Assembly (NCBI RefSeq): GCF_000167355.1
Contig: NZ_AAEW02000023.1
Span: 1 to 37,821, forward strand
Direction of reading: 5' to 3'
Length of the DNA stretch: 37,821 nt
DNA from: Desulfuromonas acetoxidans DSM 684
GTDB lineage: Bacteria > Desulfobacterota > Desulfuromonadia > Desulfuromonadales > Desulfuromonadaceae
In this document: positions 5,443-29,212 of the stretch, one piece after another
Layout: each line of letters opens with the position of its first letter
How positions within the stretch are numbered: the stretch's first letter is position 1
Position numbers and translations under genes: made by a program
The notes under the pieces: generated by a model
Told to the model about the DNA's origin: nothing
The model's database searches: none
The model's input: the letters and a program-made list of their open reading frames with translations, nothing else

Positions 5443-6447
5443 TCAGCTCTCTTCAGGGGCAAAACACAGTGCATAGTCACTGCATTCTCCACAATTGGGT
5501 GACTTGCACAGTACGGCACCGTTCTGGTCACACAAGGTCTTAAATAAAAAGCGCTTCCAGCGCATCCCTTTATTATTGGCTGCCGCCATGGTCGGCAGAA
5601 GTCGCCGAATTGAGGCCGTTAACTCAGGGCGCTGGAATAAGCCCATTGAAACCCACAGATGACCGGGATGAGCTGCCCTAGCCGTGATAATTGAGGCCAA
5701 CCAACTCGCCATAGAACGCTGCACAGCACTGCCCTGTTCGGGAACATGCGACTGCACAATAACACGAATTTCATCGTTTGGCTGCGGTAGAGATGGGGCA
5801 TCCGGCAAACAATGGGATAGCAACTCAGGTTTAACCGCTGGAAAACAGGTGGTTAATAATTGCGTGAATTGCTCTTGAGTCAAACCAAGAGCCTGTGCCG
5901 TATCCCAAGGCTCCTCAGCAGCGATTGTCAACAGACAGGCAAACAAATGACGATCTTCGGCTGTGATCTCCTGTCCAGCAGGACTGTTCATCAGGGCCTG
6001 GTAACAGGGGTTATCCGCCGTAATGCGCGGGCCGTGGTCCTCTTCAACCGGGCTGTAACTTTCCAGCACCTGTCCGGCTCCCATGGCACTGCGCACGGCA
6101 CCGTGCAAAGCCTGAACTGCAATATCAGCACAATAATCACGCTCGGCCGGCAAGCCGTCGAGACATTCATCAACACGTTGCGGCGTCAGAAGAAGAACAT
6201 CGGAAACCGATAGCCCTTCAGCCATGTCCGCTGCGGCGGCACAGGCGGCAATGGTGAAACCACACCCGAATACCTGAAAACGGATTTTGATGACGATATT
6301 ATTTTCAACGTTGATGGCAAAACGTGCGGCGGGCCGGGTTCCGGCCTGGCCAGCTTTGAGGCCGATTTCACCAACCCCGTCCGGGTTTGTCAACGTTCCG
6401 GACCGACTCAGGTCCATGGCCCATTGTCGAATCGTATCACTGTACAT
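5443..6447 (-). CDS. Fusion of NifU/IscU-like scaffold domain and NifQ-like domain
   Basis: 334 residues. Residues 1-125 resemble the NifU/IscU N-terminal scaffold: MYSDTIRQW start, FQVFGCGFTIAAC with Cys62, and ERDYCADIAVQALHGAVRSA with Cys106. These two cysteines fall at the NifU numbering, but the third scaffold cysteine (Cys35) and its neighbouring Asp are absent; the segment reads KAGQAGTRPAARF. Residues about 165-334 resemble NifQ: an AEDRHLFACLL...LGLTQEQFTQLL--CFP region and the terminal cysteine motif Cys314-X4-Cys319-X2-Cys322-X5-Cys328. NifQ carries a Mo-Fe-S cluster and supplies molybdenum to nitrogenase cofactor assembly (family knowledge). The ATG at 6447 is chosen because MYSD matches the NifU start and the upstream in-frame start is TTG. 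A sigma-54-type promoter lies 57 nt upstream. No other nif gene is in the window. Confidence 0.8.
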   Translation of the reverse strand: MYSDTIRQWAMDLSRSGTLTNPDGVGEIGLKAGQAGTRPAARFAINVENNIVIKIRFQVFGCGFTIAACAAAADMAEGLSVSDVLLLTPQRVDECLDGLPAERDYCADIAVQALHGAVRSAMGAGQVLESYSPVEEDHGPRITADNPCYQALMNSPAGQEITAEDRHLFACLLTIAAEEPWDTAQALGLTQEQFTQLLTTCFPAVKPELLSHCLPDAPSLPQPNDEIRVIVQSHVPEQGSAVQRSMASWLASIITARAAHPGHLWVSMGLFQRPELTASIRRLLPTMAAANNKGMRWKRFLFKTLCDQNGAVLCKSPNCGECSDYALCFAPEES

Positions 6448-6503
6448 AGGGTGATCTTTCTGCAAACAAGAGAAAAGACTTCGCGTTTATCGTATCAGAG
6501 TGA

Positions 6504-6519
6504 CGCAAAAGATATGCCA
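6504..6519 (-). promoter_or_regulatory. Sigma-54-type promoter of the NifU-NifQ fusion gene
   Basis: Read on the minus strand, TGGCATATCTTTTGCG matches the sigma-54 -24/-12 consensus (TGGCAC-N5-TTGC), with exactly 10 bp between GG and GC. The predicted start is near 6493, leaving a leader of about 45 nt. A TGT-N11-ACA at 6649-6665 is one base off the NifA site pattern TGT-N10-ACA, so no NifA site is claimed. Confidence 0.7.
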
Positions 6520-11106: not shown

Positions 11107-12129
11107 TCATGCGTCTTTGGGGTGATGAACGATGACATCTTTAAGGCGCTCTTCGATCTCGACCACTTCGTTGATATGGGCAAAGAACAGATCGAGCAGT
11201 CGCGGATCAAATTCGGTTCCACGCCGTTCGCGCATATAATCGAGCACCTCATCATAACTCCAGGCATGCTTGTAGGCTCGTTTTTGTAACAAAGCATCAA
11301 ACACATCGGCAATGATGACAATGCGGCCACGCAGATCAATCTCTTCGCCGCTCAAGCCCTGAGGATAGCCACTGCCGTCCCAGTGTTCATGATGCTGATG
11401 AGCAATCACCGCAGCACAACGCAATAATTGCCGCGTTGAGTGTCGCAGGATGTCATGGCCATAAACCGTATGGGTTTTGATGATTTCGAATTCCTGTGGT
11501 GTCAGGCGAGCCGGTTTGTGCAAAATGGCATCGGGGATGGCAACCTTGCCAACATCATGCATAGCTGCAGCCCAGCGGATCTCCTGGCAGAGCTGACCGC
11601 TGCATCCGGCCAGACGCGCCAACAAGGCACTAATCTCGGCGACCCGGTTGATATGCTGACCGGTTTCGACGCTTTTGAACTCGCACACAGCGCTCATCAT
11701 CAAAATGATTTCCCGCTGGGTTTCTTCGATATCGCGGTCGTGATAGCGTTTCAATTCAAGGTGGGTTTTGACCCGCGCGCACAATTCATGGGCATTGAAC
11801 GGCTTAGTCACATAGTCGACGCCACCCAGCTCAAAACCTTGGATTAGACTGTCGCTGTCAGTGCGTGCCGTAAGAAAAACAACGGGAATATGGTGGGTGG
11901 CTTTGTCGGCTTTAAGTCGGCGACACACCTCGAAACCATCCATCGGCTGCATCAGAATATCGAGCAGAATCAAATCAAAATCATGCTCTTTTACCCGCTC
12001 CAGAGCCTGTTCGCCACTGGTGGCAAAAATCATCTGATAATCGTCCACATCCTTGAGCATACGAATCCCCACCTGAATATTGGTCAGGTCATCATCCACC
12101 ACCAGAATGGCTGGTTTGTCATTGATCAT
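11107..12129 (-). CDS. Response regulator with HD-GYP c-di-GMP phosphodiesterase output
   Basis: 340 residues. A receiver domain (about 5-125) has the acidic pair in VVDDD, phosphoacceptor Asp57 (LLDILMQPMDG) and the TKPF lysine. Residues about 150-330 form an HD-GYP domain with His191-Asp192 in MHDVGKVAIPD, HTVYGHDIL, and HQHHEHWDGSGYPQGLSGEEI containing the GYP motif. The visible metal ligands suggest an active enzyme that hydrolyses c-di-GMP, as in RpfG. ATG 12129 is chosen because GGGGAGG lies 9 nt upstream; earlier in-frame ATGs are inside the kinase gene and lack spacing. The gene overlaps the 3' end of the hybrid kinase by 11 nt, suggesting translational coupling and a cognate pair. 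Confidence 0.92.
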   Translation of the reverse strand: MINDKPAILVVDDDLTNIQVGIRMLKDVDDYQMIFATSGEQALERVKEHDFDLILLDILMQPMDGFEVCRRLKADKATHHIPVVFLTARTDSDSLIQGFELGGVDYVTKPFNAHELCARVKTHLELKRYHDRDIEETQREIILMMSAVCEFKSVETGQHINRVAEISALLARLAGCSGQLCQEIRWAAAMHDVGKVAIPDAILHKPARLTPQEFEIIKTHTVYGHDILRHSTRQLLRCAAVIAHQHHEHWDGSGYPQGLSGEEIDLRGRIVIIADVFDALLQKRAYKHAWSYDEVLDYMRERRGTEFDPRLLDLFFAHINEVVEIEERLKDVIVHHPKDA

Positions 12130-15100
12130 CGTCATCAACCTCCCCATTACGTACGGCCTCCACCAATTGGGGAAAATCACCCAGCAGACCGTAGACTTCT
12201 TTTAAATCAATCCCTTCAATCGCCTGACGCAACCGCGTACAATACTCCGTGAGTAGCTCAAGCTCGTATGTCGCGTTAAGCTGCATCAATTGCTCAACAA
12301 AGGAGTCAAACAATGACAGATCGCCCTGTTCACGAATCTGCATCACTTCGTGGTTAAACCCTTGCATCTGCTGCTCAAGTTGCCGTTTGTGCTCAACGCT
12401 GCTGAAACGACAGCGAGGTTGTTCTCTCTCGTCGGCACTGGTATCAATCGATTGGGCCGGTAAAAAACGGGCGACGGCACGCAACAGATCAACGCGTTCA
12501 ATCGGCTTACGCAGATAACCGTCAAAACCACGCTGTTTAAGTTGTTTCAATTCTGTCTCCAGAACCGACGCAGTTAAGGCAATAATGGGAAGCTGTTGCC
12601 AGACCTCACTATGCCGCATGCGCTCCGCAGTCTCCTCACCGCCGAGCACCGGCATCCGTAAATCCATCAGCACCAGGTCGATCGGGATTTCCGTCAGTCG
12701 CTCTAAGGCCTCAACACCGTTTTCCGCCTCGACGACACGGATCGCCGTATCTCTGAAAACAGCTTGAATTAACTGACGATTGTCAGTCACATCATCAACA
12801 ATCATGACAGTAGCCGGCTCAAAAATAAAGTGGGTCTCAGCCAGCTCCGTATTCACTGGGAGCATCGTGCCCACATCGATGTTGTGCAAAATGACACTGA
12901 ACGTTGACCCCTGCCCCAGCTCGCTGGCGACATGAATCTCTCCATCCATCATGGTCACCAGTTTTTGACAGATGGCCAGTCCCAGACCGCTGCCACCAAA
13001 GCGCCGTTCATCCTGGCCCTTGGATTGTTGAAACATCTGAAAAATGGACTCATGATCATCGGGGGAGATCCCCATACCACTGTCTTCAACATCGATCTGC
13101 AAATCAAGTTTGCTGCACTGTGCATCGCGAAAGATTTTCTGCACCCGCAAAGTGACATACCCCTGCTCGGTAAATTTAATGGCATTACCGATCAGGTTAA
13201 GCAAAATCTGACGCAGACGCACGGCATCGACCAGCAGTGACTGAGGCAGTGCTTCATCGACATCAACAACAAAGTTCAAGTTTTTGTGGCGAATCTGTTC
13301 ATGAAACAACTGCTCCATATCTCGAAACAGCTGATGGGGATTAACATTCTCCCGGTGCAAAACCATCTGCCCAGCTTCAATTTTTGAGAGATCAAGGATA
13401 TCATTGATAATGCCCAATAACGCTTTGCCGCCGATCTTGATAGAGCGCAAATAGCCTTTTTGCACCGGATCCTTAATCAGGGTATCGAGAATATCGGTGA
13501 AGCCGATCACCGAATTGAGTGGAGTACGAATATCGTGACTCATGTGGGCCAGAAAGACACTTTTGGCCTTGGTGGCCTGTTCAGCGGCCTCTTTGGCAAC
13601 CAGCAAGGCCGCTTCAGCCTGCCGCCGTCGCTCAACCTCGGCCTTAAGCCGCCGATTCCACCAGAGGGTTGCCGCAATAATCACCAAAAAAATCGCCGCG
13701 CTTTGCCACAGAAGCCGATAATCGATATCCGCTTCGTATTCAAACGCAATCCAACGTCGATAGATCTCGCGCCGCTCGTTGGCATCAATACTCTGCAATG
13801 CCTTATTAATGATAGAGCGTAATTCGGGCAGATCTTTTTGAATACCAAAATAGAGCGCATAGGAATACGGTGTGGCACCGGAAACCTTCAAATTACTCAA
13901 GCCGGCTCGTTCACTGTCATAATCAAAGGTGGGCAGATCAACGATAAAAGCATCGATCTCCCCGCGCGACAGCGCTTTCAAACCGGTCAGGGCATTGCTG
14001 AACCGCGACAAAAGAGCTTCTGGCACATCCTTAAGGATCTTTTCGCCCACCACGTTGCCATCAACAACACCAACGTTGTATTGTGACAATTCCGTGATGC
14101 GACGAAACTGGCGGGCAGACTGGCGCACGACAATGACATGATCGACACGGATGTGTTCGCTGGAAAAATCCATTTGCTCAAAACGACTTGGCGAATACCC
14201 CACCACATCAATCAGATCAACCTGATGTTCCTGAAACAGATGTAAAGCCGTGACAAGATCGCGTTGGCGTCGGGCTTCAAATTGAAGACCGGTGCGTTGG
14301 CTGATCTGCTCCAGATAATCGGCGATAACCCCGGAATAAACACCTTTAGCATCATAAAAAGTTGTCGGTGCGCGTTGCGGGTCACCACTGAAGGTGACGA
14401 CAGGATGCTGTTTGAGCCAGTCGCGTTCAGCAGCTGTCAACTGGACTTTTTGACGTTGCGGATCATTGGCAGTCAGCCAGCGTTGCTCAATCTGTTGTCG
14501 CTGTACGGTGGAGATATCGTCGAGTGCAGCTTGCAGAATCGCCAGAAGTTGTGGCTGTTGGCGGGAAACCGCCATGGAGAGTTGGGTGTTGACCAGATCA
14601 ACGGCAAAGGCGGCGCGAATACCAACAAAGTGGTTTTTATTGGCAACAAAGTTGACGGCACTGTAGGTATCAATATAGAAATCAGCTCTGTCATCCATCA
14701 GCGCATCCAACGCCTGGCTAATGGTATCCACTTCAAGGATGGTGACGGACGGATAATTGTGCCGTATCTGCGGGGTTGTGCCGCTGCCTTTAACCATCAC
14801 CGCACGATGATGGCGGATATCATCAAGAACATCGATCCCTTGGTGGTCATCGCGGATAAACAGAAACTCGCGGGCCTGAATATACGGGGTAGTAAACAAA
14901 AAAGGAGACTGGGCTGCGTTGTGCTGATAGATGGCCGGCAACAGATCGATCTGTTCATTCGACAAGCTTAGTTGCAAGCTTTCCCAGGTGTCGGTGAAGG
15001 AATAATCAAACGTCAGGCCGGTTTTTTTGTGAATCAGATCAAGATAATCGCGCGCCAGTCCACGGTATTGGCCCTCTTCCCGAAAATCGTACGGTGGCCA

Positions 15101-15958
15101 GGTGCTGCCGGTACCGACACGAACCCGCGGATGTTCCAAAATCCATTGCCGCTGCTGAGGCGTCAGCCCCAGAGTCTCGTCTTCCTGATTGGAAAAATAA
15201 TCGACCCAGCGCTGGCGAATCTGTCGGTGGGTTTTATCATCGATGCGCGACAACGCTTGTTGCAACGCAGTGTACAGTGCGGGACGCTGCTTGCTGACGG
15301 CAAAGCAAAAGCCATTTTCCAGGGCATCCACTTTGAACGCCACCTGAACATTGGTGAGAATATTTTTTCCAAGAAAATAATTGCCCACGGCAAGATTACC
15401 AATATGGGCGTCCACCTTGCCCAGAGCCACCAATTCAAGGGCTTCTTCGTTGGAACGGGTCAGAACCAGATTAACTTGAGGATAGTGACTGACGAAATAA
15501 TCGTGAAGAAAATTACCTCGCGGCAGAGCAACGGTTTTACCCGCCAGATCGGCAAGGCGTTGAATCGTCTCGTCCGTCTTGCGAACGAACACCGCACTGT
15601 CGATATAGATATACGGCTGCGTGAAATGAAGGTAGGCGGTGCGTTGCTCGGTGCGGGCAGCACAAGCCAGCATATCGACCTCACCGTCTTTGGCCATATT
15701 GAGCACATCATGCCAGTCACCAGGCACGTATTCGATCTCAAGCCCCAGATCCTTGGCAACATGATCCAGATAATCGGATGCAATGCCCTGATGCTTCAGG
15801 TCTGAATCATAATAATCAAACGGTGGCCAATTGGCATCGACACCAACTCGAATTGTCCGCGGGTAATCCTCTTTTTGCACCGATGGCGATGAAGCGGCAT
15901 CGACCGTGACGACACTGCAAAAAACAAGCAGAAGAACAAAAAATACATGACGTTGCAT
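12119..15958 (-). CDS. BvgS/EvgS-like hybrid histidine kinase with three periplasmic SBP_bac_3 domains
   Basis: 1279 residues. After a signal segment (residues 1-22) come three tandem SBP_bac_3 (venus-flytrap) domains, at about 34-250 (TIRVGVDANWPPFDYYD), 275-495 (RVRVGTGSTWPPYDFRE) and 517-735 (VVTFSGDPQRAPTTFYD). A membrane helix lies at about 745-765. The HisKA domain has His808 in FLAHMSHDIRTPLNSV. The HATPase has the N box NLIGNAIKFTE, the G1 box VEDSGMGIS and the G2 box GGSGLGLAICQKL. A receiver domain has Asp1099 (LVLMDLRMP), followed by a helical tail of about 100 residues without an evident HPt histidine. It should sense small ligands such as amino acids and signal to the overlapping HD-GYP regulator. 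The ATG at 15958 has GGAG 9 nt upstream; an upstream TTG is less likely. Most BvgS-like kinases have two flytrap domains, so three is notable. Confidence 0.93.
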   Translation of the reverse strand: MQRHVFFVLLLVFCSVVTVDAASSPSVQKEDYPRTIRVGVDANWPPFDYYDSDLKHQGIASDYLDHVAKDLGLEIEYVPGDWHDVLNMAKDGEVDMLACAARTEQRTAYLHFTQPYIYIDSAVFVRKTDETIQRLADLAGKTVALPRGNFLHDYFVSHYPQVNLVLTRSNEEALELVALGKVDAHIGNLAVGNYFLGKNILTNVQVAFKVDALENGFCFAVSKQRPALYTALQQALSRIDDKTHRQIRQRWVDYFSNQEDETLGLTPQQRQWILEHPRVRVGTGSTWPPYDFREEGQYRGLARDYLDLIHKKTGLTFDYSFTDTWESLQLSLSNEQIDLLPAIYQHNAAQSPFLFTTPYIQAREFLFIRDDHQGIDVLDDIRHHRAVMVKGSGTTPQIRHNYPSVTILEVDTISQALDALMDDRADFYIDTYSAVNFVANKNHFVGIRAAFAVDLVNTQLSMAVSRQQPQLLAILQAALDDISTVQRQQIEQRWLTANDPQRQKVQLTAAERDWLKQHPVVTFSGDPQRAPTTFYDAKGVYSGVIADYLEQISQRTGLQFEARRQRDLVTALHLFQEHQVDLIDVVGYSPSRFEQMDFSSEHIRVDHVIVVRQSARQFRRITELSQYNVGVVDGNVVGEKILKDVPEALLSRFSNALTGLKALSRGEIDAFIVDLPTFDYDSERAGLSNLKVSGATPYSYALYFGIQKDLPELRSIINKALQSIDANERREIYRRWIAFEYEADIDYRLLWQSAAIFLVIIAATLWWNRRLKAEVERRRQAEAALLVAKEAAEQATKAKSVFLAHMSHDIRTPLNSVIGFTDILDTLIKDPVQKGYLRSIKIGGKALLGIINDILDLSKIEAGQMVLHRENVNPHQLFRDMEQLFHEQIRHKNLNFVVDVDEALPQSLLVDAVRLRQILLNLIGNAIKFTEQGYVTLRVQKIFRDAQCSKLDLQIDVEDSGMGISPDDHESIFQMFQQSKGQDERRFGGSGLGLAICQKLVTMMDGEIHVASELGQGSTFSVILHNIDVGTMLPVNTELAETHFIFEPATVMIVDDVTDNRQLIQAVFRDTAIRVVEAENGVEALERLTEIPIDLVLMDLRMPVLGGEETAERMRHSEVWQQLPIIALTASVLETELKQLKQRGFDGYLRKPIERVDLLRAVARFLPAQSIDTSADEREQPRCRFSSVEHKRQLEQQMQGFNHEVMQIREQGDLSLFDSFVEQLMQLNATYELELLTEYCTRLRQAIEGIDLKEVYGLLGDFPQLVEAVRNGEVDDDDQ

Positions 15959-16017
15959 CGTGCATGTCTCCAATCACCTGAACTGCTTGATGTTTTTTCC
16001 GCAAGAAAACTTCCTTT

Positions 16018-16045
16018 ATCATAAAAGTTTTTCAATAAATAACAA
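16018..16045 (-). promoter_or_regulatory. Candidate sigma-70-type promoter of the hybrid kinase/HD-GYP operon
   Basis: On the minus strand TTGTTA (16045-16040) is followed after 16 bp by TATGAT (16023-16018). The predicted start near 16011 leaves a leader of about 50 nt before the ATG at 15958. Confidence 0.45.
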
Positions 16046-16211
16046 TGCAAAACACATCTCACTCGACTGGCGCGCCTGTTTCATCACAAAAAAGTCCAGC
16101 AAACCATTGATGCTAACAAAAAACAAACCAAGCCGATCGCAATAAATCTCTACAATGGCAGGATCGCTGTTCAAAATCTCATTTATGTCTCTTTTGTTAG
16201 AACCCTCGCCC

Positions 16212-16240
16212 TTGTAAGCATCACTTTTGAGGAGTATAGT
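16212..16240 (+). promoter_or_regulatory. Candidate sigma-70-type promoter of the GGDEF-hemerythrin sensor
   Basis: TTGTAA (16212-16217) is followed after 17 bp by TATAGT (16235-16240). The leader to the ATG at 16351 would be about 100 nt. Confidence 0.4.
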
Positions 16241-16350
16241 AATAGCAAACAGCATATAGGAAACGTTACTACCAGTAATAAGATATGATGTTTATTCGAT
16301 TGTGGGAACACACACAACAGCGCAGCTCCCCTTGATGAAGGGTTTTCATT

Positions 16351-19300
16351 ATGATGGGCCGCAGACACAGATATTTTCCATTGATTTTGATCATCATGGT
16401 AGTGCTGTGCCCAGCGATGTCACAAGCAGCAAAACCTGAAGCCGTTTCCATTCAATTAAAATGGCACCATTCCTTTCAGTTTGCCGGGTATTATGCGGCG
16501 ATTGAAAAAGGCTTTTATGCTGAAGAGGGATTGCATGTCCGGCTGGTTGAACGCAAGATCAACGGCAAGCATTATATTCAATCAGTTGTCGATGGTGATT
16601 GTCAGTACGGCACGGCTGACACGGGGTTGCTCCTCAGCCATACCCAGGGAGCCCCGGTTGTCTGGCTGACGCAAATTTTTCAACATTCGCCTCTGATTCT
16701 TCTGACCCTGAGCAAGTCACGTATTTTCAGTCCTTACGAACTGACGGGAAAAACCGTGGCTTACGATCTGGAAAATGCCGGCAATGCTTCAATCCAGATG
16801 CTGCTGAATCAGACCATCGGCACCGACAAGCAACAATTCAACACAGTCCAGATCAATTACGATCTCAACCGCCTGGTTAATGGCGAGATCGATGCCACCA
16901 GTGCCTATCTGAGTGATCAGCCTTTTGCCCTGAAGCAGCTGGGCCATGACGTCAATATTATCGACCCGCGCAACTACGGCATTGATTTTTACGGGGACAA
17001 CCTGTTTACCAGCCACGACGAGCTGATCAACCATCCTCAACGTGTTGATAAAATGATTCGGGCAACCTTGAAAGGCTGGAATTATGCTCTGGACCACCCC
17101 CAGGAAATCATTGAACTAATCCTGGCCAAATACAACACCCGACAACTGCCCCGCGAACACCTGCGCTATGAGGCCAAGGTAACGGACCGCATGATCATGC
17201 GCGAGCTAGTTCCGCTGGGCAGCATCGATCCGCGTCGAATAGATTCCATCCTTCACGCCTATGTCCAACTGGGACACCTGGCGGACAGCCACATGCTGCA
17301 AAACCTGTTTTACGGCCTGTCCCCGGCGAAGATCAACCTGACCAGCGATGAACAACAGTGGCTGCTGGAGCATCCGCGCATCAGTTTAGTCATGGGTGAT
17401 AGTATGGAGCCGATTGTCATTAAACAGCCAAACGGCTCTGTTGTCGGCATCATCCCGGATTTTCTCAATTACCTTGGTGATATGATCGGTCAAAAGCTCT
17501 ACCTGACCACCCAGGAGGATCTAAAGAGCACCCATCAAAGGGTGCACAAGGAGAACCAATACGGCATCGCCGTCACTCTGGACAGTCCCGAACGCCGTCG
17601 TGCTTTTCTGTTTACCGAACCCTACTACCAGACACCGCTGATCGTATTTGTTCAAAAAGACCAGATTGAGAACATCTCCAGCAAAGAGGACCTCAAAGGG
17701 AAAAAAGTGGCGATTGTTCGCGGCCATCCGTCTACCGAACACTATCTACAAAACATGGAAGGTGTGTCGATTGTTTACACAGACTCGGCTGAAGAACAAT
17801 TGAGGCAGCTCCAATATGGTGAAGTGGATGCCATTGTCGGTTACACGAACTATCACTATCTGATTGAAAAAAATCTATACACCAATCTGATTCCGGCATT
17901 TTCCACTGAAAAGCAGTTCCCCATCTATATGGGGGTTAAACCCCAATATGCCCCTCTGGTGGGAATCCTGAACAAAGCGATTGCTACTTTGAGCAGTCAA
18001 AAGCGCTCGAAGATCATCTCTCACTGGCTCAAGCATCACAAACATCCTCAACAGGTTCAGAACAATCTGCCGTTAAGTGATGAAGAGCAGCACTACCTCT
18101 CCGGGTTCAAGTCGATCAGGGTTTGCGCTCAAATTGATTCTATGCCCTACGAACTGGTGGATGACTCAGGCAACTATTACGGTATTGTTGCCGACTATAT
18201 GGATCTGTTCACCTCTCAACTTCAGCTCCCCGTTGACGTGGTCGCCACCAGGAATGATCTCGACAGCCTGTCCGCTCTGAGTCAAAACCGCTGTGATCTG
18301 ATTGCCGCTCACTCACTTGAGGGCAATGAGCAGTCACATTATCTGGGCACAAAACCCTATTTTGATTCCCCCCGGGTATTTGCCGTCCACAGCTCGTCAC
18401 CACCGGTAAATGATTTCAATGCGTTGGCCTCAGGGCGTATTGGCGTGGTGGCCCACTCAGCCGAGGCATCTTTGCTGGGGCAAATTTATCCGCAAATCAA
18501 CCTGATCACGGTTGGCTCGATCCGGCAAGGGTTACAGCTCGTTGCCAATCATGAACTGGACGCGTTTGTCGGTGTGCTCGGCAGCATCAGCTATTCGATC
18601 CAGCAGCTGGCTTTATCATCGGTGAAAATCGGTGGTGCCATCCCAAGCAACGACAGGCTGGTGATCCTGGTCAGTGAAGATCAGGCACCGCTATTGCCCA
18701 TTCTTAACAAGGCCATCGACCGGCTGACACCACAGGACCGCAAGCAGATCATCAGCCGCTGGATCAGCGTCACCTATGATAATGGCCTTGACTACCGCAC
18801 CCTGGCCAAAGCGGGCGGAGCTGTTCTGATGATTGTCGGCTTTCTGCTCTATCGCCAGTACCTGATCCGGCGCAGCAATCTGACCCTGATGGCCGCACAT
18901 CGTGAATTGGAAGAAAAAAACCAGGAGTTGAATCGACTCTCCATGACGGACAAATTGACCGGTCTGCTCAACCGTCACGCCATTGAGCCGATCATTGACA
19001 ATGAAATTGGCCGTCACAAACGCGCGAATAACCCGGTCAGCCTGCTGATTGTCGATCTGGACTATTTCAAAAAAATCAACGACAACTTCGGTCATGCCGC
19101 CGGTGACAAAGTGCTTAAAGAGGTCTCAACGGCTTTGATTGCCGTCACCCGCAGTTCCGATAGTCTGGCACGCTGGGGCGGTGAAGAATTCCTCCTCGTT
19201 GCTGGCGATACACGAATCCTTAAAGCAACAGCCCTGGCCGAGAAGATTCGCCAGACCATCGCGGGCTTGCAGATTGACGATATCCCCGTCACTGCCAGTA

Positions 19301-19875
19301 TTGGTGTTGCCGAGTTTAATACGGATGAGACATTTCACCAATGGTATGAACGATGTGATAAAGCGCTGTATCAGGCCAAGGATTCCGGTCGCAATTGCGT
19401 TAAGGTCGCTCAGATGTCACGCAGCGAAATCAGTGCCCCCATGTCGATCAATAATGTTCTGCAATTGTCTTGGAGCGACAAATTCTGCTGTGGCCACGAA
19501 ACCATCGATGAACAACACATGGGCTTGTTTGCCCTCGGCAATGAACTGATCGAAGCCTTTCTCATGCGCCAGGATAAGCGACTGGTTGATGATAAACTTG
19601 AAGAACTCTATAAAAACACCTGCGACCATTTCAGCTTTGAAGAACAGCTTTTAGAAGAGGTGCACTACCCGAATGTGGTTGAACACCGTCAGGAGCATCG
19701 TCACATGGAAGAAAAGCTGGTGAGCCTGATTGAGATCTACCAACAAAACCGAGCCGATTACAGCGAGCTGCTTCACTATATCTCCATTGACCTGATCTCA
19801 GGTCATCTGTTATGTACCGACAATGACTACTTTGCCTATCTGGTCAATGACACTGTTCGTGTAACACGCTCTTGA
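16351..19875 (+). CDS. Periplasmic-sensing diguanylate cyclase with C-terminal hemerythrin
   Basis: 1174 residues. A signal peptide (about 1-26) is followed by an NMT1/THI5-like binding domain (about 29-320; SIQLKWHHSFQFAGYYAAI, KGFYAEEGL), an SBP_bac_3 domain (about 347-567), a second SBP_bac_3 domain (about 590-812), a membrane helix (about 820-840) and a short coiled coil (ELEEKNQELNRLS). The GGDEF domain (about 868-1025) has GGEEF at 943-947 and a canonical inhibitory RxxD site at 934-937 (RSSD, five residues before GGEEF), so it should be an active, feedback-controlled c-di-GMP synthase. Residues about 1038-1165 form a bacteriohemerythrin: GHETIDEQH (His1049, His1056), HFSFEEQLL, VEHRQEHRHM and HLLCTD. 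This di-iron O2-binding fold would let oxygen or redox state tune output. GAAGGG lies 8 nt before the start. Divergent from the kinase operon; a phosphoesterase gene follows after 13 nt. Confidence 0.93.
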   Translation: MMGRRHRYFPLILIIMVVLCPAMSQAAKPEAVSIQLKWHHSFQFAGYYAAIEKGFYAEEGLHVRLVERKINGKHYIQSVVDGDCQYGTADTGLLLSHTQGAPVVWLTQIFQHSPLILLTLSKSRIFSPYELTGKTVAYDLENAGNASIQMLLNQTIGTDKQQFNTVQINYDLNRLVNGEIDATSAYLSDQPFALKQLGHDVNIIDPRNYGIDFYGDNLFTSHDELINHPQRVDKMIRATLKGWNYALDHPQEIIELILAKYNTRQLPREHLRYEAKVTDRMIMRELVPLGSIDPRRIDSILHAYVQLGHLADSHMLQNLFYGLSPAKINLTSDEQQWLLEHPRISLVMGDSMEPIVIKQPNGSVVGIIPDFLNYLGDMIGQKLYLTTQEDLKSTHQRVHKENQYGIAVTLDSPERRRAFLFTEPYYQTPLIVFVQKDQIENISSKEDLKGKKVAIVRGHPSTEHYLQNMEGVSIVYTDSAEEQLRQLQYGEVDAIVGYTNYHYLIEKNLYTNLIPAFSTEKQFPIYMGVKPQYAPLVGILNKAIATLSSQKRSKIISHWLKHHKHPQQVQNNLPLSDEEQHYLSGFKSIRVCAQIDSMPYELVDDSGNYYGIVADYMDLFTSQLQLPVDVVATRNDLDSLSALSQNRCDLIAAHSLEGNEQSHYLGTKPYFDSPRVFAVHSSSPPVNDFNALASGRIGVVAHSAEASLLGQIYPQINLITVGSIRQGLQLVANHELDAFVGVLGSISYSIQQLALSSVKIGGAIPSNDRLVILVSEDQAPLLPILNKAIDRLTPQDRKQIISRWISVTYDNGLDYRTLAKAGGAVLMIVGFLLYRQYLIRRSNLTLMAAHRELEEKNQELNRLSMTDKLTGLLNRHAIEPIIDNEIGRHKRANNPVSLLIVDLDYFKKINDNFGHAAGDKVLKEVSTALIAVTRSSDSLARWGGEEFLLVAGDTRILKATALAEKIRQTIAGLQIDDIPVTASIGVAEFNTDETFHQWYERCDKALYQAKDSGRNCVKVAQMSRSEISAPMSINNVLQLSWSDKFCCGHETIDEQHMGLFALGNELIEAFLMRQDKRLVDDKLEELYKNTCDHFSFEEQLLEEVHYPNVVEHRQEHRHMEEKLVSLIEIYQQNRADYSELLHYISIDLISGHLLCTDNDYFAYLVNDTVRVTRS

Positions 19876-22354: not shown

Positions 22355-22786
22355 CTACATACGCGCCAACCCTGTTGCCGTGGAGTCGAGGCGAATGACC
22401 AGATTATCGTCATTTTCAATACGAATAAACAAGGTATCAGAGCAGGATCCTTTTGGGAAAAAAGTAATTGTAAAGCTACCGGTCCCTTGCCAGGCTGCTG
22501 TTGTCAGGCTACGAGCTTCCACAACGTCTGCGGGTAAGTCAAGCGCCGTACCATTATAATCAGTGTAGGTTTTTGCTGTCAGATTCAACGTCACCTGTTT
22601 AATCTGGCTGTCCGTCACAGCTTCACTGCGGGCATGCCGAAGCCAAGTCAGCATTTGCCGTGCTGCCTCTTTGTTGGCAGCACGTTCACGCCAATCCTGA
22701 GTTGCTGGCAACGCAATGGCAAAAAGGATCGCCATAATAGAAATGGTGACAACCAGCTCTGTCAGTGTAAAACCACGTTGATTCAT
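22355..22786 (-). CDS. fimT: FimT/GspH-type minor pseudopilin
   Basis: 143 residues. The class III signal sequence MNQRG is followed by FTLTELVVTISIMAILFAIALP. Cleavage by prepilin peptidase after Gly would give an N-terminal Phe with Glu at position 5. The C-terminal region (EAARQMLTWLRHARSEAVTDSQ, VTLNLTAKTY, GSFTITFFPKGSCSDTLFIRI) matches the GspH/FimT fold, whose members prime pilus assembly and in some bacteria bind DNA for uptake. ATG 22786 is chosen over 22792 because GAAGGG lies 6 nt upstream of it and directly abuts the other. It is the last gene of the operon; its ribosome binding site overlaps the end of the Ig-like gene. Confidence 0.9.
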   Translation of the reverse strand: MNQRGFTLTELVVTISIMAILFAIALPATQDWRERAANKEAARQMLTWLRHARSEAVTDSQIKQVTLNLTAKTYTDYNGTALDLPADVVEARSLTTAAWQGTGSFTITFFPKGSCSDTLFIRIENDDNLVIRLDSTATGLARM

Positions 22787-22797
22787 GCTCATCCCTT

Positions 22798-23412
22798 CTA
22801 ACGCCGAACAGTTGAAAGCTCAAGTTGAAAGATCTGTTCAGCGCGACCATTATATGGATCAAAGGCTTCTATTTTAACAGGATACAGTCCTTCGTTTTCC
22901 TCTGGCTGCCACTGGAATCGGCCACTGTTGGCGTCTAAATCAAAGTTCTGAGGCCCCTCAATCAGGCGGTATGAGACTTCATCACCATCGACATCTTCAG
23001 CATAGACACGCCCACGGTAAAGATCGTCATCATACTCAGCCTTGGGGTCTTTGGTAAACTGCGGCGGTGCATTATCGGCATAAATTGGCTTGGGGATAAA
23101 CGGAGGATATTCTTCTCCAGTTATTCCATAGGCCTTGACTTCAACGATAATTTCATCACCGCGTTTAAAAAAATCGCCGGACAGAAATGGACTATCCTCA
23201 AAGTCGATTTCTTCGCCGTTAACCAGCCAGCGATAGCTAAAACTAACTTCATCAATCAAATCATCCTGAACAACGGGTTCAACGGTAATCCCACTCAAAA
23301 CATTAACTGGAGCGGGAGTATAACGTAGTTGAACCACTGGGCTACGCTCTTCCATCGCGATAGCAGTAAACGGCAAACTTAGAACAGCTATAATGAGCAA
23401 TCGTCGTAGCAT
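22798..23412 (-). CDS. Secreted two-domain Ig/cadherin-like protein of the pilin operon
   Basis: 204 residues. A signal peptide (LLIIAVLSLPFTAIA) ends near residue 19. Residues about 25-105 look like a PKD/Ig-like sandwich (VSFSYRWLVNGEEID, GDEIIVEVKAYG). Residues about 112-202 resemble a cadherin-like or putative-Ig domain: APPQFTKDP, GRVYAEDVDGDEVSYRLIEG, LDANSGRFQWQPEENEG and YPVKIEAFDPYNG, with DVDGDE and LDANSG as likely calcium loops. The ATG at 23412 is separated from the pilY1 stop by one base, so it is probably translationally coupled. The position between pilY1 and fimT suggests a pilus-tip or adhesin accessory; that role is inference, and no named family was recognised. Confidence 0.8.
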   Translation of the reverse strand: MLRRLLIIAVLSLPFTAIAMEERSPVVQLRYTPAPVNVLSGITVEPVVQDDLIDEVSFSYRWLVNGEEIDFEDSPFLSGDFFKRGDEIIVEVKAYGITGEEYPPFIPKPIYADNAPPQFTKDPKAEYDDDLYRGRVYAEDVDGDEVSYRLIEGPQNFDLDANSGRFQWQPEENEGLYPVKIEAFDPYNGRAEQIFQLELSTVRR

Positions 23413-23413
23413 A

Positions 23414-26400
23414 TCACCATTTCATCCAGTAAATCGGAAATACTGGATCAATAGATCCAACAGATCCCGAGTTGAAGAAACCGCCACCACGGCCAACCAT
23501 AACGGATACCGCGCCAGCTTTACTAACGATAATTAGTGGTTCCGATGCAATTCCACTACCAACAGCCATACTTCGATCACCCCGGTCAAGGACATCTTTA
23601 GCTTCCCCGGTCTCATCATCAATCGTATCGTTGCTAGTATCTAGATTATAAACCGCTTCAGCTGTCATTGCATCAACAGCATACAAACGCGAAGGTCCCA
23701 ACACACCTTGGCATGGATCAAAGTCTTCATCTGTTTCATCAATAATCGCCGGGGTATAAGTCGTAAAGTATAAAACATTACTTACGACTTTAGGCAACGC
23801 AAGAACTTTCTCCCCCTCATTCCCATCCAATTTAATATACCAACCATAATAGGTTTTTTCACCTGCCCCATCGTCGTAGGTGTACGGGCTGACCAGCTTA
23901 CTGCGGATGGCGGCCTGATCTGCGACACTGACGCTGGAGTCCTGAAGTTCGTTTTCTGTTACATCAACGAGATTCGTCTCATTCAGAGGGCTGTCAGACC
24001 CGTAAGACCAGTGGTTATCACCAGATTCACGATCACGCACCATGTAAAAACGATCCAGAACTGCGGTATTGAGAGGATGCTCACGGTCACCTGTCCCAAA
24101 ATAGACAAAGGTGTCATCACCCTTCACTGTTGCTGTTGGTTTGAAGAAAACCTTTCGCCCATCATCAGCCGTACTGATGTTTGATTTAAAGATACGCGTT
24201 CCATCCCATTCACCGGTATCACTATCCGCGACATTAAAACGCCACAACTGTGCTCCAGTATCAACCAGATAGATGCGATCAAGATAACCGTCGCTGTTTC
24301 TGTCGACCAACAAGAGATCACTTGGCACGCTAAAAGTCATTTTCGATTGCATACTTGAGGAGTCATCGAATGTATAGCTCCACAACAAGGAACCGCTATC
24401 CGTTAAATTAGGACTTCCATCGGTACTATCCAGCGTTGCCACTTCAATTGCAAACAGACCTCTTCCTCGTGGTGAAAAAGCAACAGAAGTTCCAGTACTT
24501 GTGGCATCTTCCGCGCCTTCATCGCCATCAGATGTCACCGTTGCTTCTGTGGTCGTATCTGGAAATGATTGTGTGTTACCGAAACGCAGATCTTCGTTGG
24601 TATCGTATCCAGCGCCAAAGAACGCGACAACTTTTTCCTCCGAACCAATTTTCATACGGCTCAGTCTCGGCAAACTCCATGTCTGGCTCAGTTCTTCAAA
24701 ACCATCATCTTCGCTGTTAATTTGCCACAAAAACTGCGGATCTTCGGGATCAGTAATATCCAGCGCAAAATAGGATCCACGTGATGGTGGAGGATCTGTG
24801 GAAGGATCAACAGGTTGTGTCAACGTACTGGTTCCACCACCACGGCGAGTGGAGCACAACAGAATAGCCCGGTCATCACCATCGCCGCCACTGTCTGCCA
24901 TATCTACGGGAAGAATTGTACCGTCTCCATCTTTATCATACACATAGATAACAGGAGAACTATCGACATAATAAACATGTCGGTCCGTCGCCGATGCATA
25001 TTGCAAATTGGGCAGTAAATCCGGTGGGATGAAGGCCCAGGCTTCTTCACCGGTGGCATCTCTGAAGGCATGCAGCATGCCATCGTTACCACCAACGAAA
25101 ATATATGCGTTATTCACATCAGGATCTGCCTCATTAGCATCAGAAACCGTATAAGCGGAATAGTTTAAAACCACCGGTTTTGAGTGCATAACATCACCCA
25201 TAATCCACGCTCTTTTTGCTGTTGTATCGTCCGAATACAGCTCATAGGCGTCATAACCATGAATGAAGTTGATCAGACTATCTTTTTCAGCTTCATCTTC
25301 AACCCCCAAATCAGTGTAAGTTAAATCTCCATTACTGGTTGAGAACGCATTACCACTGGCATTCAGATCGTCGCTGACCAATCTCGTATAAATTTTACGC
25401 GAAGTGACTCGATCGAGAAGTTTTTGCCCAACGCCACCTTGATTAACTTCACCACCATCATAACTACTGCCCCAATAAGATCGAACAGCAGGATTACCAT
25501 CAGCATCAACAAGAAAATAGCCATCTAAACTTGGATCGTCAGTATCATCTGGATAGAGATAAGTGGCATCAATTTCATTGTCGGAGCTGTCAAAACCTTT
25601 AATTCGACTATCGGTACCAAGACCGAATTTTTTTAAGTTTCCATACCAGGGTTCTTCATTCATCGGCTTGAAAAAACCCAAGTAAATTCTTTGTCCACTA
25701 TAGGCCCGATTATCAGGACTTGCCGGAACAACCGGAGCCACAAAGGAAGAGTTCGCTTCGAGAATACCGCCAATAATACGCAACAAAGCGTCGATTAATT
25801 CATCGGGATTCTTGATGATATGGTATTGCCCCTGCCCGACTGCGGCGGCTTTTCTCAGCAGATCCACCTCTTCAGTCATCAGCTGAATCACATGTGTTTG
25901 AACATGAGGCGTATAGCCGTCAATATCTAATGGCAAATGTTCATACATCAATTTTGCCAGGTCACCAACTTCGCCCTCTTCACCATCTTCATCGAGATCG
26001 GCGGAATAGCCGGCATATTTTGGTATTAATGTTTTTGTCTGGGAACTATCCCCATTGCTGCCTGTGGTCAGCAAAACGATATGGTTGGTCTGACACCAGT
26101 ATTCAATCGGGCTCGGGTAGGCAACATTGTCGCTGGAAATGCCTTCGGCCACACTTCCGGCATTGCCGATCCAGTACTCGTAGGCATCCCAGAAGGATTC
26201 GTTGACGGGCTGGGTGTTACCATTAACCAGATCATCAAGCTCTGATAAACCGGCAACCAGTTTTTTATAATCTTCCGATTGCACATCGTCAATTTCAGTA
26301 ATAGGCACAACAACCTGACCGCCATGATTATTATCACCAAACGTCATAATGCCCATGTTGGCTTTTTCGTAGACCTGTTCGAAAATCACTTCTTCAAGCT

Positions 26401-27337
26401 GATATTGAACCATATCCATAACGGAGCCGAGGGAGGTCCAAGTCACACCCTCGTGAATAACCGTCGTTCCGGCTCCGGGGAAATAGCCATCGGAGCCGAC
26501 AGTCCAATCAGGCTCTGTGCTTGGCGAGGCACCGTCCTCAATATCGGTACATTTGAAAAGGAGCTCCAGTTCTTCTTCACTATTATCACCACTGGGATCC
26601 ACCCACTTTCCGGCATCAACGTCATAGTAGTCATCATCAGAAGGATCCAAGATATACGTCCCACTGGGATTAACGACAGCCCCTAGTTGCTCGGTATCGG
26701 GATCAAGACCGAGCCATTGACTCCACGTATAGGTGATAGCACTCGCTTGAAGATAATTAAGATAGTTACCGGTAAAATAATTTTCCCATTGATTGTCATT
26801 ACTCGGGCATTTCCCCTTGGTGTCCAAAGCACCGTACCAAAACCCATTTTGCTCTAACGCATAGCGTGGATGCTGATTGGTGGTTACATCGTCATAACCA
26901 TTCCCTGTGAAGTCCTCATTGTAATTGTCGAATAATTCGGCACCCGTATAGGTATAATAATCCTCATCTAGAGTTCCTGATACATCGGTTATCGCATCAC
27001 AGACAATATCGTCGACATCAAATTTAGTGCTTTGATAGTTTGTCGTGTTTTCATTGGCAACATTGCGCAAATAAACATGGAAACGGGGATAATTCGTTGC
27101 CGTATCATCTAACTGAGTCGAATAATCCGTAGAAGGATCGTATGGCTCCACACTACCCAAAGATTTCATAGCACCACTGTTGTCAATGATGAATAAAATG
27201 TTGGGACGCACACCAGAAGCAGCACTACCGATATAGACTGCGGAATCACCTTCATAATAGTCCGGCACAGCCCATGCACCTTGAACGACACAAACAACAA
27301 GCAGAACCATCAGCCCTAATGTATTTTTAAATTTCAT
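23414..27337 (-). CDS. pilY1: PilY1-type pilus tip adhesin
   Basis: 1307 residues. The signal peptide is cleaved near AWA (residue 23). An N-terminal von Willebrand A-like region carries ILFIIDNSGAM; its MIDAS motif is DxSxA rather than DxSxS (Asp52, Ser54, Ala56). LLTTGSNGDSSQTK and the YHIIKNPDELIDALLRIIGGI segment close this region around residue 570. The C-terminal Neisseria PilC/PilY1 propeller (about 700-1250) includes WIMGDVMHSKPVVLNYS, IFVGGNDGMLHAFRDATGEEAW, GAGYDTNEDLRFG and YFGTGDREHP. DRNSDGYLD at 1012-1020 fits the PilY1 calcium loop DxDxNxDGxxD, and VYDKDGDGTILPVD is another candidate. PilY1 sits at the type IV pilus tip and acts in adhesion, priming and mechanosensing (family knowledge). 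AGGAGG lies 9 nt before the ATG. Confidence 0.94.
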   Translation of the reverse strand: MKFKNTLGLMVLLVVCVVQGAWAVPDYYEGDSAVYIGSAASGVRPNILFIIDNSGAMKSLGSVEPYDPSTDYSTQLDDTATNYPRFHVYLRNVANENTTNYQSTKFDVDDIVCDAITDVSGTLDEDYYTYTGAELFDNYNEDFTGNGYDDVTTNQHPRYALEQNGFWYGALDTKGKCPSNDNQWENYFTGNYLNYLQASAITYTWSQWLGLDPDTEQLGAVVNPSGTYILDPSDDDYYDVDAGKWVDPSGDNSEEELELLFKCTDIEDGASPSTEPDWTVGSDGYFPGAGTTVIHEGVTWTSLGSVMDMVQYQLEEVIFEQVYEKANMGIMTFGDNNHGGQVVVPITEIDDVQSEDYKKLVAGLSELDDLVNGNTQPVNESFWDAYEYWIGNAGSVAEGISSDNVAYPSPIEYWCQTNHIVLLTTGSNGDSSQTKTLIPKYAGYSADLDEDGEEGEVGDLAKLMYEHLPLDIDGYTPHVQTHVIQLMTEEVDLLRKAAAVGQGQYHIIKNPDELIDALLRIIGGILEANSSFVAPVVPASPDNRAYSGQRIYLGFFKPMNEEPWYGNLKKFGLGTDSRIKGFDSSDNEIDATYLYPDDTDDPSLDGYFLVDADGNPAVRSYWGSSYDGGEVNQGGVGQKLLDRVTSRKIYTRLVSDDLNASGNAFSTSNGDLTYTDLGVEDEAEKDSLINFIHGYDAYELYSDDTTAKRAWIMGDVMHSKPVVLNYSAYTVSDANEADPDVNNAYIFVGGNDGMLHAFRDATGEEAWAFIPPDLLPNLQYASATDRHVYYVDSSPVIYVYDKDGDGTILPVDMADSGGDGDDRAILLCSTRRGGGTSTLTQPVDPSTDPPPSRGSYFALDITDPEDPQFLWQINSEDDGFEELSQTWSLPRLSRMKIGSEEKVVAFFGAGYDTNEDLRFGNTQSFPDTTTEATVTSDGDEGAEDATSTGTSVAFSPRGRGLFAIEVATLDSTDGSPNLTDSGSLLWSYTFDDSSSMQSKMTFSVPSDLLLVDRNSDGYLDRIYLVDTGAQLWRFNVADSDTGEWDGTRIFKSNISTADDGRKVFFKPTATVKGDDTFVYFGTGDREHPLNTAVLDRFYMVRDRESGDNHWSYGSDSPLNETNLVDVTENELQDSSVSVADQAAIRSKLVSPYTYDDGAGEKTYYGWYIKLDGNEGEKVLALPKVVSNVLYFTTYTPAIIDETDEDFDPCQGVLGPSRLYAVDAMTAEAVYNLDTSNDTIDDETGEAKDVLDRGDRSMAVGSGIASEPLIIVSKAGAVSVMVGRGGGFFNSGSVGSIDPVFPIYWMKW

Positions 27338-27373
27338 CGTCCCAACCCTCCTAGGGCATGAGTGAACATGCGA

Positions 27374-27898
27374 TTAATAGACATGCCCACCTCGGTGAAC
27401 AAAGAGTTTTTCAATTCTTGCAGAACTGCGGTCATGGGCATTGCTTTCTACCGCAATACGATAATACGCAGCCTCTCCGGAAGCCTCTTCAGTCGCTCCA
27501 GTACGAAAAATATTATTCTGATAGGCATCAGTGCTCGTTGATTCCATCATGGCAGAGGGAATCATTCCGGTATAAGCGACAACTTCATTGCGAGCAGTGC
27601 CAGATAATTCAACCCCAGCGGGCAATACGGCGGCGAGAGCCGTATCATCTTCCAGATTCGTAACCGGCGTAAGCGTATTAACAACCTGTTGTGATGCATA
27701 TTCTGAAGCCATTTCAGCCGCAGTAAACGCATCGCTTGAAATACGATAATTCGACGTAATCGCCAGTTCTGTATCAGTTGAATTCAAAACCATCACCCCA
27801 AGCAGTGTCAAAATCACCAGCATCGACATCGTTAAAATAAGAGCGATACCTCGTTCATTATTCACCTGTGCGGCAATCAACTTTTTTAGAGAAGACAT
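27374..27898 (-). CDS. pilX: PilX-type minor pilin
   Basis: 174 residues from ATG 27898, with AGGAG 9 nt upstream. The N-terminal segment NNERG-IALILTMSMLVILTLLGVM is the PilX_N pattern: a type III cleavage site after Gly, but with no Glu at position 5, as usual for PilX/GspK. The following STDTELAITSNYRISSDAFTAAE matches the conserved ER-AxNxR--AFxAAE region. The C-terminus (AYYRIAVESNAHDRSSARIEKLFVHRGG cut as AYYRIAVESNAHDRSSARIE) resembles the end of PilX proteins. PilX joins PilV, PilW and PilE in the initiation complex that carries PilY1. It lies 4 nt after pilW. Confidence 0.88.
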   Translation of the reverse strand: MSSLKKLIAAQVNNERGIALILTMSMLVILTLLGVMVLNSTDTELAITSNYRISSDAFTAAEMASEYASQQVVNTLTPVTNLEDDTALAAVLPAGVELSGTARNEVVAYTGMIPSAMMESTSTDAYQNNIFRTGATEEASGEAAYYRIAVESNAHDRSSARIEKLFVHRGGHVY

Positions 27899-27902
27899 AA
27901 TA

Positions 27903-28769
27903 TTAGACTCCTGCAATATTGCGAATTTTAACAATGGTTCTAAGCTGCCTGCTTTTATCGCCGGCAATTTTATTGTCCTCAGTTTTGCTTGTAATTGTGA
28001 GTGAAACTGCTGTTATTTCGTCAAGAGCAGCGGAACTATCCTCCCCATCTCCGTTCAAATAAGCCAATTCCACTGAAGTAATACTGGCCGCAACAGTTGC
28101 GGCAGTGTTTCCATTGACACTTCGCTGCAACAACATGAGTCCAGCATCGTCACTATCGGGGTCGTCCACAAGAGTATAAGCAATGCTTACAGGGTAACTA
28201 TCATCATCAGGAGCTCTTCGTAATAAGAGATCTCGATTAGATACGGTTATACTCGCACCAGATTCATTTTTGACGTTGAGATTTTCATCATCATCACCAT
28301 CAACACTTGTTACAATCAACTCTCCACGTTGGTTAAGAGTTACCGGGTCAATAATCAACGTGGTAACAGGGTCAGCTTCGACGAAACTTGCTCCCATCAA
28401 TGAGTCGACTTCCACAACACCTGTCGACCCATTATTCACTGAGACATCTCCAACAGAGCGGGAATAAATCCCAGATGAAACAGGTGCGGAAAGAGTAAAT
28501 GTTGCACCTCCTGCCAAAGAAGTCGGAGCCGAGGTCACAGCATTGAGCGCAGAAGAGGTTAAGAAACCAGACATACGGATGTCCGTAATCATTGTGTCCA
28601 TAGCTATCCGCAAATTCTGTTGGGCATCCACAATCTCTTCAGACTGGTAGGCGTTTTTCTGGGAATTGAGATATAGGCTATAAACTGCGGTCATGACCAA
28701 ACCGAGGATCACCGCAACCATCAGCAATTCGATCAATGAGAAACCTTGATCATTCTGTAGTTTTTTCAT
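27903..28769 (-). CDS. pilW: PilW-type minor pilin
   Basis: 288 residues from ATG 28769, with GGGAGAGG upstream. The class III signal MKKLQNDQG is followed by FSLIELLMVAVILGLVMTAVYSLY, with Glu5. A PilW-like region (SEEIVDAQQNLRIAMDTMITDIRMSGF split: SEEIVDAQQNLRIAMDTM and DIRMSGF) follows. The C-terminal domain is Asp/Ser-rich (SVDGDDDENLNV, VDDPDSDDAGLML) and ends with SRQLRTIVKIRNIAG, the usual conserved tail. PilW is a core minor pilin of the tip complex. It lies 17 nt after pilV in the same operon. Confidence 0.9.
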   Translation of the reverse strand: MKKLQNDQGFSLIELLMVAVILGLVMTAVYSLYLNSQKNAYQSEEIVDAQQNLRIAMDTMITDIRMSGFLTSSALNAVTSAPTSLAGGATFTLSAPVSSGIYSRSVGDVSVNNGSTGVVEVDSLMGASFVEADPVTTLIIDPVTLNQRGELIVTSVDGDDDENLNVKNESGASITVSNRDLLLRRAPDDDSYPVSIAYTLVDDPDSDDAGLMLLQRSVNGNTAATVAASITSVELAYLNGDGEDSSAALDEITAVSLTITSKTEDNKIAGDKSRQLRTIVKIRNIAGV

Positions 28770-28786
28770 CCGCCTCTCCCTGCTGG

Positions 28787-29212
28787 TCAATACGTTCTTT
28801 TAAGAACTGTTTTGGACAAACTCCGGCCTGGAGATTGAACATTTATCTCAATACTGGTGACTCCGGCGATAGGAGAATTTGGAGTAATTTGATATGTTGC
28901 CGTGCAATCACCAGCTCCATCAATCGTCCATTCCTGAGCCGTTCCAGGTGCATCAAAATCAGTTGGCCAATCAACAGTTCCCGTCGCCACCACCAACAAA
29001 TCACTATCACCATTACGCGACCACAGTTCTTCAATCAAGCCGTCCGCTAAAGAGGTTAAAGCGGTTAAACTGTGTGCAGAGGAATTGCCCTGTATAGCCG
29101 TAATTTGCATTCCCGCCAACGCCAGCAAGCCAATGGCAAAAACAGTTAAAGCGACGAGCAGCTCAATCAAACTGAATCCTGCTTCCTTATTTGATGTCGT
29201 TTTACATGGCAT
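28787..29212 (-). CDS. pilV: PilV-type minor pilin
   Basis: 141 residues from ATG 29212, with AGGAG 6 nt upstream. The signal MPCKTTSNKEAG precedes FSLIELLVALTVFAIGLLALAGMQ, with Glu5 and the long helix typical of PilV/GspI; the sequence ends VLKRTY. It is the first gene of the operon pilV-pilW-pilX-pilY1-Ig-fimT. A sigma-54-type promoter lies 45 nt upstream. PilV is one of the minor pilins that prime the fibre and present PilY1. Confidence 0.9.
   Translation of the reverse strand: MPCKTTSNKEAGFSLIELLVALTVFAIGLLALAGMQITAIQGNSSAHSLTALTSLADGLIEELWSRNGDSDLLVVATGTVDWPTDFDAPGTAQEWTIDGAGDCTATYQITPNSPIAGVTSIEINVQSPGRSLSKTVLKRTY

Follow-up and report, generated by a model that had tools for sequence, protein, structure and literature searches.

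The window, the whole stretch of 37,821 nucleotides of Desulfuromonas acetoxidans DSM 684 that was analysed, contains on its reverse strand a single open frame coding for a protein of 334 amino acids, with an ATG initiation codon at 6445–6447 and a stop codon at 5443–5445. An upstream TTG at 6465 would add six residues, but the alignment of relatives begins at residue 1 or 2. Pfam analysis placed a NifU_N domain (PF01592) at residues 15–119 (49.3 bits against a cut-off of 22) and a NifQ domain (PF04891) at residues 169–330 (145.2 bits against 27), thereby confirming the original prediction that one fused gene occupies 5443–6447, and supplying the strong NifQ profile match which that prediction had put forward as its own test. 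No other family exceeded its cut-off when the protein was scanned against Pfam, and at those cut-offs the central ferredoxin-like and C-terminal Nfu domains of three-domain NifU were absent. The resultant architecture is as follows.

5443–6447, reverse strand: NifU-like/NifQ fusion gene (334 amino acids plus stop, ATG start at 6447).
6082–6447, reverse strand: remodelled NifU_N/IscU domain, residues 1–122 (PF01592, 49.3 bits; IscU fold in the model).
5956–6081, reverse strand: linker, residues 123–164 (low confidence in part of the model).
5458–5955, reverse strand: NifQ domain, residues 165–330 (PF04891, 145.2 bits).

The NCBIfam NifU and IscU models matched only residues 1 to 119–124, and far below their cut-offs (TIGR03419, 67.2 bits against 187.9; TIGR02000, 53.6 against 273.3; TIGR01999, 31.1 against 192.4), a weak test inasmuch as the full NifU of the same genome also fell below TIGR02000 (205.2 against 273.3). 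An AlphaFold2 model based on 10 sequences had a mean pLDDT of 77 and a pTM of 0.57, with residues 32–37, 125–139 and 314–334 below a pLDDT of 50, and was therefore too modest for any inter-domain geometry to be used; a Foldseek comparison with the PDB returned IscU structures as the top matches, with target-normalised TM values of 0.77–0.88 for the first ten. The closest named relatives were Desulfuromonas and other Desulfuromonadales metagenome-assembled genomes, Malonomonas rubra and Desulfuromusa kysingii.

Elsewhere in the window, adjoining signalling genes at 11107–19875 encode a response regulator with an HD domain, a hybrid histidine kinase that has three solute-binding matches, and a 1174-residue protein combining NMT1, solute-binding, GGDEF and hemerythrin domains. 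At 22355–28790, prepilin-like genes (N_methyl, GspH) flank a 1307-residue protein with a PilY1 match just below cut-off, the whole probably representing a cluster of type IV pilus minor-pilin genes. The 363-residue protein encoded at 1373–2464 combines a nitrite/sulphite reductase 4Fe-4S domain with a ferredoxin-like one.

A profile search of 277 genomes of the class detected NifQ in 59, every one in the same order of anaerobic bacteria as the window, and six-frame reading of the relevant loci resolved these into 54 full fusions, four cut at contig ends (G045, G064, G110 and G117) and one, G077, whose frame is broken close to the C-terminus. No stand-alone NifQ occurred among the 59 NifQ genomes of the class: within the order NifQ was seen in no form other than the fusion, which is not a one-off. 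That an error of assembly or reading frame had merged two genes was ruled out by the full fused frame in 54 genomes, and two separate genes, which the original prediction had suggested seeking in relatives, were found in none of those examined. In the broken copy (G077, L077, 2437–3533) the frame is interrupted ahead of the last NifQ cysteines, through either assembly error or decay.

An even draw of 395 genomes from the phylum gave seven NifQ matches over cut-off, all in the same order, plus one further weak match with a stop inside it. A profile of the N-domain gave 56 matches of 154–214 bits, each to a frame of at least 290 residues in a NifQ genome, and a further match, of 119 bits, that runs up to the end of a contig (G017); the next among the matches listed, at 99 bits, was to an IscU-sized frame. 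Beyond the phylum, coverage comprised plasmid records and one genome collection searched by a close-relatives method. NifQ in the plasmid records was separate, in that none of the 134 matching records covered 80% of the fusion, and four such proteins that were inspected were of 186–230 residues.

The metal site of the N-domain was compared with that of 40 unique non-fused IscU/NifU domains, all drawn from the same order (of 50 rows found, four fusion rows were set aside, and 40 unique domains were kept of the remaining 46). The relevant positions are these.

6328–6345, reverse strand: residues 35–40 (A-G-T-R-P-A), in the place of the lost Cys35 and Asp37 by alignment.
6262–6264, reverse strand: Cys62, the kept cluster cysteine (54/54 fusions, 40/40 controls).
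6241–6243, reverse strand: Cys69, invariant (54/54 fusions; 0/40 controls, which have Ser in 32 and Thr in 8).
6130–6135, reverse strand: Tyr105-Cys106, His-Cys in IscU/NifU (54/54 fusions; His in 38/40 controls).

Of the three cluster cysteines of IscU and NifU_N (35, 62 and 106), the fusions have the second and third, and in none of 54 is the first present. The protein in the window has K-A-G-Q-A-G-T-R-P, with neither Cys nor Asp, in place of the Cys-Gly-Asp (CGD) loop of IscU, although the pairing of residues 35–40 with that loop is uncertain by one or two residues. Throughout the fusions the equivalent loop is of nine residues without Cys, the aligned Asp position being occupied by Leu, Ile, Pro or Val. 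In a slightly different set of 54, seven had a Cys at another place ahead of the FGCG motif. The Asp that follows the first Cys and the His that precedes the third are both missing, so that Cys35, Asp37 and His105 were replaced in every full fusion, the last by Tyr, while Cys62, Cys69, Pro100, Arg103, Tyr105 and Cys106 were invariant. The controls by comparison kept CGD in 39 of 40, the second Cys in all 40 and His-Cys in 38 (one Ser-Cys and one Asp-Cys making up the remainder). The alignment thereby bore out the earlier claim that Cys62 and Cys106 are kept while Cys35 and its adjacent Asp are lost.

In a tree of N-domains the fusions formed a single clade against the controls with support of 100/100, the tree being based on 126 columns and its bootstrap not having settled. 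Ten pairs within the same genus as the window gave N-domain dN/dS values of 0.05–0.11, the ratios for two pairs with dS above 2.5 being rough; judged by these ratios, the N-domain is under purifying selection. A decaying scaffold or pseudogene was ruled out by these data in combination with the invariant residues, and the description of the scaffold as degenerate in the original prediction proved misleading, given Cys69, Arg103 and Tyr105 in 54 of 54 and the low dN/dS.

Replacement of the Asp in IscU, SufU or NifU is reported in passages of PMC13423590 and PMC2644719 to stabilise the cluster or hinder its donation, and the H106A variant of IscU to stabilise it likewise; the IscU-type site of the fusion is without the Asp, the His and the first Cys. 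A non-fused IscU-type protein (L152; G062:C1:53212–53574) with ADGD for CGD and Asp-Cys for His-Cys is encoded about 1.5 kb from a 329-residue NifU, and constitutes another scaffold without the first cysteine.

The NifQ half ends in the cysteine arrangement foreseen by the original prediction (Cys314-x4-Cys319-x2-Cys322-x5-Cys328), which we take to be the NifQ motif and which was present in all 54 fusions and in the four stand-alone plasmid NifQ proteins. Beyond that prediction, the analysis revealed a fifth invariant NifQ cysteine (Cys306), in addition to the new invariant Cys69 and the Tyr in place of His105.

5464–5532, reverse strand: NifQ cysteines 306, 314, 319, 322 and 328, invariant in 54 fusions and four stand-alone NifQ.

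The stretches H-L-W and M-x-W-K are likewise common to the fusion and the four plasmid proteins, and a search of PDB sequences with the NifQ half gave no match at E ≤ 1. In FeMo-co assembly NifQ is presumed to donate the molybdenum. This half of the fusion has retained the cysteines of ordinary NifQ; it should carry the Fe-S or Mo-Fe-S cluster that gives molybdenum to NifEN.

With respect to genome context, nifN lies upstream of the fusion on the same strand in 40 of the 59 NifQ genomes, at a distance of 6–666 bases (200 or fewer in 33 of the 40), and in seven others contig ends were too near for linkage to be judged. The 12 genomes in which nifN is not upstream comprise the five of the same genus as the window, five in which other nif genes adjoin the fusion (G004, G010, G018, G070 and G072), and G109 and G111, where the examined stretch contained none of seven nif genes; the upstream DNA considered was limited to about 1 kb in G111 and also in G034. 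When two fusion loci were named with NCBIfam models, both contained nifN, nifE, nifD, nifK and nifX, one of them additionally nifH and the other a NifB-like protein just below cut-off. In the genome from which the window derives, a CowN-family gene (L089, 12028–12390) follows nifEN, a position occupied in most relatives by the fusion.

In the same genus as the window the fusion gene has been relocated, and a sigma-54-like site precedes it in all five genomes.

6505–6519, reverse strand: sigma-54-like −24/−12 site TGGCATATCTTTTGC, about 58–73 bases before the ATG.

The sequence TGGCATATCTTTTGC was the sole exact sigma-54 match in the window, which on its own is weak evidence, given an expectation of 0.21 matches and the presence of one in 20 of 100 shuffled sequences. 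All five genomes of the genus, close relatives of one another, have an equivalent site at −71 to −76, and a looser one is present at −153 in G109. A site of this type ahead of every fusion gene was rejected, 48 of 54 upstream regions being without one.

The original prediction had suggested looking for nif genes elsewhere in the genome, and four exceeded their NCBIfam cut-offs: contig C7 has nifK and nifD, and C15 has nifE and nifN. The genome also encodes an IscU-sized protein and the aforementioned full-length NifU (205.2 bits; TIGR02000 cut-off 273.3). A nifD model matched 57 of the 59 NifQ genomes (52 of the 57 at E ≤ 1e-160), and the two without a match are 59% and 70% complete. Within the order, NifQ was found in 57 of 87 nifD-matching genomes and in 2 of the 49 that the model did not match, while 29 of the 87 had neither NifQ nor the N-domain; in other orders of the class none of 130 nifD-matching genomes had NifQ. 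The fusion is therefore dispensable for Mo nitrogenase in general. Those 130 (of 141 genomes, G136–G276, matched at E ≤ 0.001) are likely diazotrophs, which would therefore supply molybdenum without NifQ.

With a NifU model, seven NifQ genomes of the 59 gave a match at E < 1e-100, another 20 lay between about 1e-59 and 1e-73, and 29 between about 1e-42 and 1e-46, the last presumably an IscU-like level; three had no match at 1e-40. Since seven carriers thus have a full canonical NifU besides the fusion, the N-domain is no plain substitute for NifU, and a general replacement of NifU by the fusion was not supported. Among 14 well-assembled carriers, six (G001, G040, G041, G089, G105 and G135) had no separate NifU of at least 300 residues and only one or two IscU-sized proteins, whereas the other eight had a separate NifU of 307–337 residues. 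A full NifU therefore accompanies the fusion in some carriers but not in others, and the six that have none would need to rely on an IscU-type scaffold.

From the domains and their conservation, the residues lost and gained, the linkage to nifEN, the co-occurrence with nif genes and the purifying selection, we infer that the protein is a NifQ with an attached N-domain that delivers to it, a reading to which we give an even chance of being correct. The N-domain would have kept the IscU fold and yet not assemble clusters in the manner of IscU or NifU; it would instead dock a real scaffold, namely IscU or, where present, NifU, and relay the cluster that arrives, or else iron or sulfur from it, via Cys62 and Cys106 to the NifQ cysteines. 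The hand-over would occur beside NifEN, to which the NifQ half would then supply molybdenum. This reading is consistent with the transfer of a [4Fe-4S] cluster from NifU to NifQ reported for the separate Azotobacter proteins (Barahona et al. 2024; passages of PMC11605450), with both domains exceeding their Pfam cut-offs, with nifN or other nif genes adjacent in 40 and a further five of the 59 genomes and nifE, nifN, nifD, nifK and nifX as neighbours in two loci, with nifD in 57 of the 59, with the retention of Cys62 and Cys106 in 54 of 54 while Cys35, Asp37 and His105 were replaced, with the low N-domain dN/dS in ten pairs, and with the six of 14 carriers that have no large NifU. Against it, both kept cysteines could be structural; loss of the Asp would stabilise the cluster or hinder its release, as described in the same parts of PMC13423590 and PMC2644719, unless other changes offset this; 29 of 87 nifD genomes of the order have neither NifQ nor the N-domain and none of the 130 in other orders has NifQ; the structural model is modest; and seven carriers also have a full canonical NifU. 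The fusion supports a direct partnership between NifU and NifQ, but its N-domain is no standard scaffold. The findings agree with the notion, contained in the original prediction, of a carrier feeding NifQ or of a domain for docking.

Rather unlikely, although the foremost of the alternatives, is a domain restricted to docking or dimerisation, which would bind IscU, NifU, a desulfurase or NifEN, and hold NifQ in place with its own cysteines devoid of any cluster. The disappearance of Cys35, Asp37 and His105 from all 54 fusions while the IscU fold was kept would suit such a role; the invariance of Cys62, Cys106 and the new Cys69 exceeds what docking alone would need.

We would also raise, tentatively and as an unlikely proposition, that the cluster site has been rebuilt and not lost, Cys62, Cys69 and Cys106 together with Tyr105 forming a new putative metal site. 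Cys69 is seven residues past Cys62 on the same predicted helix, which would place it on about the same face. Such a site might hold a subunit-bridging or non-releasing cluster, or might serve iron–molybdenum exchange with the NifQ cysteines; were this so, what was once an assembly scaffold would now be a fixed partner in metal exchange.

A working scaffold in cis, assembling [4Fe-4S] clusters for NifQ, is improbable. The Discussion of PMC11605450 suggests that the [4Fe-4S] clusters of NifQ in such fusions are made mainly on the N-terminal NifU domain, and the Azotobacter transfer, the kept fold and two cysteines, and the six carriers with no other NifU of at least 300 residues are in keeping with this; but all 54 fusions have other residues at three of the five active-site positions, while the controls keep CGD in 39 of 40 and His-Cys in 38 of 40. 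The retention of two cysteines, the loss of three ligands and the gain of one invariant Cys fit dedicated delivery or docking better than assembly in cis, and the remodelled site speaks against the role put forward for the domain in that Discussion. More improbable still is a part for the N-domain in the exchange of iron for molybdenum, with molybdenum or the leaving iron at a putative Cys62/Cys69/Cys106 site, for although Cys69 and Tyr105 are new and invariant, the chain also contains the Mo-binding NifQ, and the same Discussion expects a further, unknown protein for Mo exchange, Cys69 sits at the Ser/Thr position of IscU and could be a simple structural replacement.

The supply of an Fe-S cluster to NifQ and the uptake of molybdenum, together an unsettled step of nitrogenase cofactor assembly with relevance to the engineering of nitrogenase in plants, have a ready test object in this natural protein, which unites a NifU-like part and NifQ in one chain and which selection has maintained beside nifEN. 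On the preferred reading its altered active site would separate the making of a cluster from its delivery, and it conflicts with the suggestion published in that Discussion.

The fusion itself is already in print, and the earlier belief that none had been described does not stand: the Discussion of PMC11605450 mentions an IscU/NifU-like–NifQ fusion in the delta-proteobacteria Malonomonas rubra and Geoalkalibacter ferrihydricus. In such open-access text as was accessible, that paper gave the one account of the fusion, and no account of the altered cysteines was found. The architecture is the same, and the M. rubra gene (L043), 47% identical, was among the relatives used. Within its Discussion there is nothing on the lost Cys, Asp and His, the gained Cys, the linkage to nifEN or the distribution; what the present analysis adds is the distribution, the remodelled site, the purifying selection and single clade, the nifN linkage, and the relocated gene with its sigma-54-like site in the genus of the window.

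Compared with stand-alone NifQ (the four plasmid proteins of 186–230 residues), the fusion has the same five cysteines and the same H-L-W and M-x-W-K stretches but, unlike them, a NifU_N part. With the N-domains of IscU and NifU it has in common the fold, Cys62, Cys106 and a GLP stretch, as well as a DG-x-GEVG stretch shared with most IscU proteins of the order; it differs from them in the replacement of the first Cys, the Asp and the His, in the invariance of Cys69, Arg103 and Tyr105, and in the attached NifQ. The NifB–NifX fusion and three-domain NifU, both named as parallels in the Discussion of PMC11605450, likewise combine partners in cofactor assembly within one chain, although the partners are different ones.
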